Made by a program: the position numbers and the translations under genes. Under the pieces are notes generated by a model. That model was not told the DNA's origin, ran no database searches, and saw nothing but the letters and a program-made list of their open reading frames with translations. This document shows positions 20,924 through 27,882 of a stretch of DNA of 32,137 nucleotides, in pieces. The stretch's first letter is position 1; each line of letters starts with the position of its first letter. The DNA is taken from assembly GCA_023251895.1 (NCBI GenBank), contig JAHEXX010000012.1, forward strand, positions 1-32,137, written 5' to 3'. This stretch comes from a bacterium (GTDB lineage Bacteria > Actinomycetota > UBA4738 > HRBIN12).

Positions 20924-21102
20924 TCGGGCGGTTCCCGGTCGGGCCGGAGGCGCTGGGGTGTTCCCCGTCGCCGAAGAGGGAAGCCGGTGCAAGGCCGGCA
21001 CGGTCGCGCCACTGTGACCGGGGAGCGAACCCGACGGAACCACTGGGGAAACCCGGGAAGGGTCGGGGGAGCGAGGATCCGGGAGTCAGGAGACCTGCCC
21101 GA
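20924..21102 (+). promoter_or_regulatory. Cobalamin riboswitch
   Basis: An adenosylcobalamin-type aptamer upstream of btuFCD. The B12 box AGTCAGGAGACCTGCC (21084-21099) is essentially consensus. Further conserved blocks come in the right order: GGGAAGCCGGTGCAAG (around 20979-20994), the GCCACTGTGAC segment near 21008-21018, and the AAACCCGGGAAGGGTC arm near 21050-21063. The closing P1 helix can form between TCGGGCGG (20924-20931) and the CTGCCCGA after the box (21095-21102, with wobble pairs). Just downstream, the Shine-Dalgarno of btuF sits in the loop of a small hairpin closed by GCGT and ACGC (around 21126-21141), so control may be at translation initiation. That last point is inference. 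Confidence 0.95.
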
Positions 21103-21143
21103 GGACAGAGAGACGGTCGTCCTTCGCGTGAGAGGAGACGCTC

Positions 21144-26334: not shown

Positions 26335-26709
26335 TTGGACGACCACGTGACCACCGAGGACGCGGTGCCCGAGGAAGCAACCTCGATCCCCTCCGGCGGA
26401 ACCGGGCAGCTCACGAAAGAGGCCGTCTTGGACTCGCTCCGCAACGTGTTCGACCCCGAGCTGGGAATCAACATCGTGGACCTCGGGCTCGTGTATGAGG
26501 TCGATATCTCCGACGAGGGCACTGTCCACATCGAGTACACGCTCACGACGATGGGCTGTCCCATCGGCCCGCTGATCGAGCAGCAGATGCAATCTTTCCT
26601 GGCCAACCTTCCGGGCGTGACGGCCGTTGAGGCCGAGATGGCCCTTCGGCCGCCGTGGAGCCCGGAGATGATGTCCGACGAGGCCAAGGCCGCCCTCGGC
26701 ATCTTCTGA
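26335..26709 (+). CDS. sufT: SufT/MIP18-family (DUF59) Fe-S assembly protein
   Basis: Small protein, 124 residues, of the MIP18/PaaD-like family that helps mature [4Fe-4S] proteins. After a flexible acidic N-terminus come VLDSLRNVFDPELGINIVDLGLVYEVDI (core DPELGINIVDLGLVY), YTLTTMGCPIGP with the conserved C75, and the C-terminal MALRPPWSPEMMSDEAK, where PPW is a family landmark. I start it at TTG 26335 because GAGGAG (26324-26329) lies 5 bases upstream; GTG 26347 is an alternative. A TAGGAT at 26301-26306 could be its -10 box. In many actinobacteria sufT is the last gene of the suf operon. Here it precedes the operon, separated from it by the sulfurtransferase unit. Confidence 0.88.
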   Translation: MDDHVTTEDAVPEEATSIPSGGTGQLTKEAVLDSLRNVFDPELGINIVDLGLVYEVDISDEGTVHIEYTLTTMGCPIGPLIEQQMQSFLANLPGVTAVEAEMALRPPWSPEMMSDEAKAALGIF

Positions 26710-26722
26710 GGACCCCTCGGCG

Positions 26723-26752
26723 TTGACATCGCACCTGCAACGGGCATACCGT
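26723..26752 (+). promoter_or_regulatory. Promoter of the leader peptide and sulfurtransferase unit
   Basis: A consensus -35 box TTGACA (26723-26728) is followed after 18 bases by TACCGT (26747-26752), which fits the actinobacterial TANNNT -10 form. The predicted transcription start, around 26758-26760, lies just ahead of the GGAGG that serves the leader peptide. This is the best-looking promoter in the window. It lies 13 bases after the sufT stop, so the sulfurtransferase need not depend on sufT transcription. Confidence 0.65.
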
Positions 26753-26783
26753 GTCCGAATCCGATGCCGGAGGTAGGGATTCG

Positions 26784-26894
26784 GTGATCCGCACGCGCGA
26801 GCAGGGGCTGGTGGGAGCCATGATCCCGTCCCGGCTGTGCTGTTCGCGCTTCGGCGCCCGCCCGGAGGGCGCGGAAGGACGCGTGCGGCCGTAG
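26784..26894 (+). CDS. Cysteine-containing leader peptide (36 residues)
   Basis: A short frame from GTG 26784 to TAG 26894, with GGAGG (26769-26773) 10 bases upstream. In-frame starts at 26811 (GTG) and 26820 (ATG) would give shorter versions ending identically. The product is basic and centres on SRLCCSRF, with two adjacent cysteine codons at 26838-26843. It has no fold or export signal. The promoter is immediately upstream, and a terminator-like hairpin and the thiosulfate sulfurtransferase gene follow. Cys-Cys upstream peptides before sulfur genes are known in actinobacteria as cysteine-responsive attenuation peptides. I infer the same job here: ribosome speed at the cysteine codons reports cysteinyl-tRNA supply. 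Confidence 0.66.
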   Translation: MIRTREQGLVGAMIPSRLCCSRFGARPEGAEGRVRP

Positions 26895-26918
26895 CGGCAC
26901 CGGGACACCAGCATCGAG

Positions 26919-26943
26919 AGGCCGCCCGCTGGCGGCCTTTGCC
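26919..26943 (+). terminator. Attenuator hairpin in the sulfurtransferase leader
   Basis: AGGCCGCC (26919-26926) pairs with GGCGGCCT (26931-26938) around a CGCT loop, and TTTGCCGTTT follows, so it resembles an intrinsic terminator with an imperfect U tract. Its 5' arm GGCCGC (26920-26925) is also exactly complementary to GCGGCC (26885-26890), which overlaps the last codons of the leader peptide. The two pairings exclude each other: a ribosome that reaches the leader stop would cover the upstream segment and let the terminator form. The pairing is seen; the regulatory behaviour is inferred. Confidence 0.55.
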
Positions 26944-26982
26944 GTTTCAGGGAGATCGGTTCGGGAAGGAAGGGGGAGAGCG

Positions 26983-27828
26983 GTGAGTGGATACGCGAAG
27001 CCGGAGGTGTTGGTCGAGACCGACTGGCTGGAGGAACACGTCGGAGATCCGGGCGTCCGGATCATCGAGGTGGACGAGGACACGCAGGCCTACGAGAAGG
27101 GCCACATCAAAGGAGCGGTGGGCTGGAACTGGACCACCGACCTGCACGCCCCGGTGGGTCGGGACTATGTGGACCAGGCCGGCCTGTCGAAGCTGCTGTC
27201 GAACGCGGGCGTCGGCGCGGACACGACCGTAGTGCTGTACGGCGGGAACAACAACTGGTTCGCGGCGTACGCCTACTGGATCCTGAAGCTCCGGGGGTTC
27301 GACGACGTGAAGCTCTTGAACGGCGGGCGCAAGAAGTGGGAGCTGGAGAGCCGGGAGCTCACTCAGGAGACGCCCTCGTACAAGCCGACCGGTATCACGA
27401 TCTCGGCTGCGGAGAAGCGGGAGATCCGGGCCCTTCGGGACGAGGTGCTCGCCAAGGTCGGCGGCGCGACCGGGTTCGTCGACGTGCGCTCGCCGGAGGA
27501 GTACCGGGGTGAGAAGCTCGCCCCCGACCACCTGCCGCAGGAGCAGGCCCAGGTCCCGGGGCATATCGCCGGGGCGGCCAACATCCCATGGGCCAAGGCG
27601 GCGAACGACGACGGTACGTTCAAGTCGGCCGAGGAACTGAAGGCGCTGTACGAGGGTGAGGGGATCGGGGCGGACCGGGAGGTCATCGCGTACTGCCGGA
27701 TCGGCGAGCGGTCCTCACACACATGGTTCGCCCTGCAGGAGCTGCTCGGTTATCCGAACGTGAAGAACTACGACGGGTCCTGGACCGAGTACGGCTCGCT
27801 CGTGGGCGCTCCCGTCGAGAAGGGATAG
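26983..27828 (+). CDS. sseA: Thiosulfate sulfurtransferase (tandem rhodanese)
   Basis: Cytosolic two-domain rhodanese, 281 residues, that moves sulfane sulfur from thiosulfate or a related donor to a thiol acceptor. The N-terminal domain (about 8-125) is the inactive type, with HIKGAVGWNW and VVLYGGNNNWFAAYAYW. The C-terminal domain (about 160-277) has FVDVRSPEEYRG, GHIAGAANIPW and the active-site loop CRIGERS with persulfide-carrying C238, as in mycobacterial CysA2/SseA. The start is GTG 26983 with GGGGGAGA just upstream. It is preceded by the Cys-Cys leader and followed by a strong hairpin, so it forms a single-gene unit. Beside the suf operon it may contribute sulfur, but the donor there is normally SufS. 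Confidence 0.93.
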   Translation: MSGYAKPEVLVETDWLEEHVGDPGVRIIEVDEDTQAYEKGHIKGAVGWNWTTDLHAPVGRDYVDQAGLSKLLSNAGVGADTTVVLYGGNNNWFAAYAYWILKLRGFDDVKLLNGGRKKWELESRELTQETPSYKPTGITISAAEKREIRALRDEVLAKVGGATGFVDVRSPEEYRGEKLAPDHLPQEQAQVPGHIAGAANIPWAKAANDDGTFKSAEELKALYEGEGIGADREVIAYCRIGERSSHTWFALQELLGYPNVKNYDGSWTEYGSLVGAPVEKG

Positions 27829-27845: not shown

Positions 27846-27882
27846 CGGAGGGCGGGCGCGCCGGAGGCGCGCCCGCCCTCCG
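27846..27882 (+). terminator. Long perfect hairpin after the sulfurtransferase gene
   Basis: GGAGGGCGGGCGCGCC (27847-27862) is followed by a three-base loop and its exact complement (27866-27881); one more C-G pair extends the stem to 17 base pairs. There is no U tract (GTCCTGC follows), so it is a terminator of the U-less type proposed for GC-rich bacteria, or an mRNA 3'-end stabiliser. It sits 18 bases after the sulfurtransferase stop and isolates that unit from the suf operon. Confidence 0.7.

Follow-up and report, generated by a model that had tools for sequence, protein, structure and literature searches.

The locus and its neighboring genes

The window, by which we mean the whole 32,137-nt stretch of DNA analyzed, carries a gene encoding a two-domain rhodanese (Pfam Rhodanese PF00581, 3.4e-33). 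The top match of its product among solved structures is 3hwi, 'Thiosulfate sulfurtransferase' (E 6.9e-110), the CRIGER loop being common to both, and the assignment of this gene as a thiosulfate sulfurtransferase, made in an earlier note from the DNA letters, was borne out as the CysA2/SseA type. On its 5' side lies a gene for DUF59 Fe-S assembly, whose last base is 26709, and on its 3' side two SufBD-type genes identified by Pfam. The interval between the rhodanese and sufB-like genes holds a long inverted repeat (27847-27881) that is GC-rich and lacks a T run; it may mark where the rhodanese transcript ends. Elsewhere in the window, a cobalamin riboswitch (Rfam RF00174, 93.4 bits) occupies 20931-21116 of the plus strand. 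A sequence check recovered every element named in the earlier note at the same coordinates; these and the additional features are listed in Table 1.

Table 1. Features of the sulfurtransferase gene and its upstream region, in window coordinates
Feature	Position	Strand	Basis or remark
Putative promoter, TTGACA 26723-26728, 18-nt spacer, TACCGT 26747-26752	26723-26752	+	Sequence
Operator-like palindrome TCGCACCTGCAA, one mismatch from TTGCACCTGCAA, in promoter spacer	26729-26740	.	Motif count
Shine-Dalgarno GGAGG of leader ORF, 10 nt 5' of GTG	26769-26773	+	Sequence
Leader peptide ORF (uORF), 36 sense codons, (M)IRTREQGLVGAMIPSRLCCSRFGARPEGAEGRVRP	26784-26894	+	GTG 26784 to TAG 26892-26894
Conserved leader part, codons 1-20, ending with Cys-Cys	26784-26843	+	Invariant T4 R5 G8 V10 M13 P15 R17 C19
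Tandem Cys codons TGC TGT	26838-26843	+	Cys19 34/34, Cys20 28/34 distinct loci
GC hairpin in distal uORF, GCGCCC 26854-26859 / GGGCGC 26867-26872	26854-26872	+	Predicted -16.4 kcal/mol with flanks
Candidate antiterminator 5' strand GCG-T-GCGGCC, at uORF stop	26881-26890	+	Pairs with 26920-26929; helix -15.7, hairpin -21.5 kcal/mol (predicted)
Putative terminator hairpin, 10 bp, loop 4	26917-26940	+	Arms 26917-26926 / 26931-26940; predicted about -17.8 kcal/mol
U-containing tail of putative terminator TTTGCCGTTTC	26938-26948	+	Sequence; suboptimal U-tract
Thiosulfate sulfurtransferase gene, CysA2/SseA type, putatively regulated	26983-27828	+	GTG start; CRIGER active-site loop

Conservation of the leader peptide

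Rhodanese orthologs were collected from 60 related genomes for comparison of the leader, and in most of the family's genomes the rhodanese gene is preceded by a version with the sequence [MVL][IV]RTRxxGxVxxMIPSRLCC. The leader ORF of the window matches the family HMM with an E-value of 6.4e-16. Across 34 distinct loci the uORF is present above chance expectation, its start codon swaps between ATG, GTG and TTG (with one CTG) at a single alignment position, variation is greatest at third codon positions, and pN/pS is 0.39 in frame versus 1.18 and 1.66 when the frame is shifted. The invariant residues of Table 1 are constant at all of these loci, and no conservation was seen beyond Cys20. Purine-rich stretches of the GGAG/GGNGG type occupy the position equivalent to the Shine-Dalgarno sequence at most non-tusA loci. 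Comparison among loci shows the protein-level selection expected of a translated leader. The earlier note had proposed looking in relatives for conservation of the Cys codons, which was found (Table 1); the N-terminal sequence kept beyond those codons was absent from it.

Where codon 20 encodes Cys it is TGT in 27 of 28 cases, yet only 16 of the 83 Cys codons in the genes of the window are TGT, TGC being preferred by about 4:1. Selection may act at this sensor position for the less used codon, or alternatively for the RNA. At one locus (L021) only the minimal frame MIPDRACCTG is present, and its ATG overlaps the TGA of the upstream DUF59 gene, which suggests either that MIPxRxCC is the essential part of the peptide or that Met13 is able to start translation.

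Distribution of the leader family and associated genes

A profile built from 25 leader peptides, with the family consensus [MVL]IRTRxxGxVxxMIPxRxCC, matched 19 of the 27 class genomes at E<1e-5, usually with two or three copies per genome; some match at E up to 1 was present in 25 of the 27, the weakest probably being due to chance. The leader DNA pattern occurs in 20 of the 27 in-class genomes versus none of 370 genomes drawn from the rest of the phylum, and its reversed control gave no match in the same 27 and 370 genomes. The named records are actinobacterial assembled genomes, including HRbin12 and KatS3mg013, and the class is probably UBA4738 in GTDB.

The leader precedes rhodanese, tusA-dsrE2, nitrite/sulfite-reductase-like and cysH-like genes, as well as one β-carbonic anhydrase-like gene and one small unknown gene. 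In the window's own genome, a tusA-dsrE2 pair with the leader is found at G000:C50. The TusA and DrsE_2 identities are backed by Pfam; the sulfite-reductase, cysH and carbonic anhydrase names were assigned by us from the sequences, and no Pfam match was obtained for the short N-terminal pieces scanned from the reductase-like and cysH-like products. The leader peptides matched no NCBIfam or Pfam family, and no Rfam covariance model (riboswitch, T-box or other) matched the leader RNA in 26700-27000. The leader is a sulfur-gene peptide family that matches no Rfam, Pfam or NCBIfam entry, and its class-wide occurrence before several sulfur genes was absent from the earlier note.

Promoter and candidate operator

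The TACCGT hexamer of the putative promoter fits the actinobacterial -10 element TANNNT, which together with nTGACn is a promoter motif of actinobacteria (PMC8079986). The earlier note had held that a transcription start downstream of 26894 would speak against attenuation; because the arrangement TTGAC[AG]-N18-TANNNT is common to relatives, being also present at L002, L003, L007 and L015, the position of the putative promoter favors the note on this point.

Within the promoter spacer lies an operator-like palindrome that the earlier note did not include. Among the 27 genomes of the class, the palindrome TTGCAYCTGCAA has 64 sites, compared to 3 for a reversed-pattern control. Its sites adjoin sulfur and cysteine genes, including positions in or beside the promoters of leader-peptide genes, and are also found 5' of JAB-domain (Mec-like) and Fur-family regulator genes (L123, which is G000:C129:1637, and L124-L152). 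This distribution marks TTGCAYCTGCAA as a candidate sulfur-regulon operator, through which the Fur-family protein may regulate its own gene.

A recurrent terminator-like hairpin

The 5' arm of the hairpin downstream of the uORF contains GGCCGC at 26920-26925, and the hairpin is followed by the tail TTTGCCGTTT. A perfect hairpin of -15 kcal/mol or lower, no more than 90 nt from the uORF stop, is present in 13 of 23 non-tusA leaders versus 0.30 expected from shuffles, although the terminator loci have common ancestry and this count, like the pair counts below, overstates their independence. In the 13 leaders the hairpin begins 25-45 nt after the first base of the uORF stop, followed in relatives mostly by a pyrimidine-rich tail of the TTYC type (TTTC or TTCC). 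In the 15 hairpins compared, GGCCGC/GCGGCC forms an unchanging core apart from one G-U, and the pair just outside it (-1) is G-C at five loci, A-U at three, C-G at three, G-U at three and a mismatch at one. Because the outer pair varies in this manner, the stem appears to be maintained through compensatory change. Comparison shows the hairpin to be conserved, and its recurrence and compensatory outer pairs uphold the terminator-like hairpin of the earlier note. The hairpin is absent from the output of a consensus terminator scan because its U-tract is weak; whether termination in mycobacteria requires a U-tract is debated, and suboptimal U-tracts are helped by NusG (PMC12288462).

A comparable hairpin is lacking in 10 of the 23 non-tusA leaders and in nearly all tusA leaders, variants that were absent from the earlier note. 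The rhodanese leaders without a terminator are L002, L003, L070, L012, L015 and L055, and in the first three, from one genus, the leader ends two residues past Cys-Cys. The tusA-dsrE2 leaders (L104, L109-L121) are near-leaderless: they begin close to the presumed 5' end of the transcript, with the ATG directly after the TANNNT box and TTGCACCTGCA. Since the peptide is kept without a terminator at some loci, it probably acts through outputs that vary from gene to gene.

The candidate antiterminator and the first hairpin

The six antiterminator pairs of the earlier note, 26885-26890 with 26920-26925, grow to nine with the addition of 26881-26883/26927-26929, and the predicted antiterminator hairpin of the window is -21.5 kcal/mol versus -17.2 kcal/mol when the terminator is folded by itself. 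In most leaders, the sequence that best complements the terminator 5' arm is located close to the uORF stop. GCGG is found within about 15 nt of the stop in 10 of 13 terminator-bearing versus 2 of 12 terminator-less non-tusA leaders (Fisher p 0.004, for a motif selected post hoc, after inspection). The antiterminator duplex was not more stable than expected from dinucleotide-shuffled spacers (p 0.32 for the window; Stouffer p 0.12 over 13 loci), and pairing energies did not reach significance in a sliding-window profile or in a Mann-Whitney comparison with terminator-less leaders (p 0.09 and 0.32). The pairing claimed in the earlier note thus stands in its complementarity and its placement, here and in most terminator-bearing leaders, but not in its energy. 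The note had also proposed looking for compensatory changes in 26885-26890/26920-26925; none were found, and no covariation is demonstrable because the GGCCGC core is invariant. The single GGCCGC-N-GCGGCC repeat within the window is not above chance (0.43 expected) and such repeats are common genome-wide (67 versus 74 for a control), therefore the sequence alone is meaningless and only its placement is informative. Indirectly, a second pairing partner is best indicated by the invariance of the terminator core, which could otherwise drift.

The spacing of the Cys codons, the antiterminator strand and the uORF stop (Table 1) suits a switch. As the earlier note had proposed, the antiterminator strand would be covered by a ribosome at the stop and left exposed by one stalled at Cys-Cys. 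With modeled ribosome positions, the terminator 5' arm was more occupied prior to synthesis of the 3' arm when the ribosome was stalled at Cys than at the stop at 14 of 14 loci, a result toward which any GC-rich spacer would bias the model. In an equilibrium model, the terminator still forms in most stalled states (P 0.95 in the window) and loses out only in the leaders of the cysH-like genes and in one of the reductase-like leaders; the switch would therefore need kinetic control.

The first GC hairpin of the earlier note, in the distal uORF, is present in the window but is not conserved above chance (p 0.28 versus shuffles; family mean z -0.39). An intra-uORF hairpin exceeds chance only at L051 and L061, and a role for 26854-26872 as a pause hairpin is possible but unsupported. 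The folding energy of the whole leader was uninformative (z -0.6). A seemingly conserved hairpin at the uORF Shine-Dalgarno sequence (AATCC...GGATT) was dropped due to inconsistent folding.

A probable cysteine-responsive attenuator and alternative readings

Taken from sequence comparison, the locus is probably a ribosome-mediated, cysteine-responsive transcription attenuator of the thiosulfate sulfurtransferase gene. RNA polymerase would start near 26759, and a ribosome would translate the 36-codon leader peptide. When stalled at Cys-Cys, the ribosome would leave 26881-26890 free to pair with 26920-26929, which would block the terminator and allow the sulfurtransferase to be transcribed. With ample cysteine, it would reach the stop and cover 26881-26890, so that the terminator forms and transcription ends. 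That cysteine is the signal, that the hairpin terminates transcription, that the antiterminator strands pair and that the response runs in this direction are inferences. The position of the leader before several kinds of sulfur gene appears to favor attenuation. Its identity as a Cys leader is well supported, and as an antitermination switch it is moderately supported: from the cysteine attenuator of the earlier note the leader, Cys codons, terminator and geometry were retained, the antiterminator only in part, and the first hairpin was not.

It is possible, though we think it unlikely, that the same Cys leader works via translation or Rho, as has been proposed for Cys leaders of mycobacteria. 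Stalling would then alter how accessible the downstream ribosome-binding site is, or whether Rho can load, and the hairpin would only add constitutive termination. The presence of the peptide without a terminator in several rhodanese and nearly all tusA leaders is consistent with such an output, as is the situation in mycobacteria, where Cys leaders have no conserved terminators (PMC1262725), their mode of action is described as translational attenuation (PMC13236596), and termination is dominated by Rho (PMC12288462). However, the U-tailed hairpin at a fixed distance and with an invariant GGCCGC core in 13 leaders is far beyond chance, and in the window the next start codon, that of the rhodanese gene, lies 88 nt past the uORF stop with the hairpin in between.

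The conserved RTRxxGxVxxMIPxRxCC sequence could instead act as a nascent chain that arrests the ribosome in response to a sulfur metabolite or to the charged state, sensed inside the tunnel, a reading that we also regard as doubtful. Invariant residues 4, 5, 8, 10, 13, 15 and 17 would be tunnel-exposed, about 2 to 15 residues before Cys19, and classical codon-counting leaders need not conserve such upstream residues; these are kept even at L055, L071 and L105-L108, where only one Cys is present at positions 19-20. Nevertheless, Cys19 is equally constant and the downstream genes are sulfur genes, both of which are explained by codon counting, and Met13 might persist as an alternative start, the position at which the L021 frame begins. 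In a broader reading, which we consider improbable as a whole, one peptide would serve a class-wide sulfur regulon as both nascent-chain and Cys-codon sensor, its output being transcription antitermination at some genes and translational or Rho-dependent at others, and the palindromic operator would possibly be bound by a Fur-family protein. That the hairpin is a mere terminator of read-through from the DUF59 gene, the short ORF being unrelated, is very improbable: the hairpin does lie between two same-strand genes, the first ending at 26709, but the uORF-hairpin pair recurs before cysH-like and sulfite-reductase-like genes, each with promoter-like sequence.

Comparison with known leader peptides

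In mycobacteria-like and Streptomyces-like genomes, the Ms5788A family (NF042933) is likewise a short Cys leader 5' of the orthologous CysA2-type rhodanese gene (L194-L199), and according to the literature leaders of Ms5788A and of the broader cis_reg_atten family NF042934 also precede cysteine and sulfur genes, as does the family described here. In mycobacteria, namely M. smegmatis, attenuation by leaders with Cys codons was shown to respond to cysteine (Canestrari 2020, as cited in PMC9031893). None of the 25 leader peptides matched the Ms5788A or NF042934 HMMs at E up to 10; conversely, NF042934 had no match over the cut-off in the 27 genomes of the class, and NF042933 had none in the in-class genomes sampled. 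The mycobacterial Cys leaders are leaderless (PMC9031893), whereas the leader in the window has a Shine-Dalgarno sequence and a putative terminator hairpin. The presence of unrelated leader families at orthologous genes suggests that CysA2-type rhodanese genes came under different Cys leader families in different actinobacterial groups. Actinobacterial Cys leaders have so far been described without conserved terminators (PMC1262725), and at several sulfur genes the present family shows both a terminator hairpin that recurs and a candidate antiterminator. Because it includes both leaders with terminators and natural terminator-less variants, the question of how stalling leads to control is directly testable by comparison and reporters.

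In the literature searched, the only Cys-Cys attenuator predicted to have a terminator was the one upstream of cysS in Rhodobacterales (PMC8632094). This predicted ribosome-mediated attenuator, uORFC-8-2, similarly combines tandem Cys codons in a uORF with a predicted intrinsic terminator. It is set apart by description and by location, in another phylum and before other genes: uORFC-8-2 is found in Alphaproteobacteria at cysS only, with a different peptide in which UGC is dominant, whereas the leader here is found in Actinomycetota before a multi-gene sulfur set, with UGC-UGU.

The actinobacterial trp and ilvB attenuators (PMC1262725; M. tuberculosis ilvB1, PMC13236596) resemble the locus in having a leader peptide with regulatory codons and a terminator that overlaps the antiterminator partner near the uORF stop, the antiterminator here being a candidate. 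In trp, short GC triples are kept between the antiterminator and terminator (gGCC-rGCy-GGCC), resembling those at this locus. Compared to trp and ilvB, the leader here would sense cysteine, its peptide is conserved well beyond the regulatory codons, and its U-tract is weaker.
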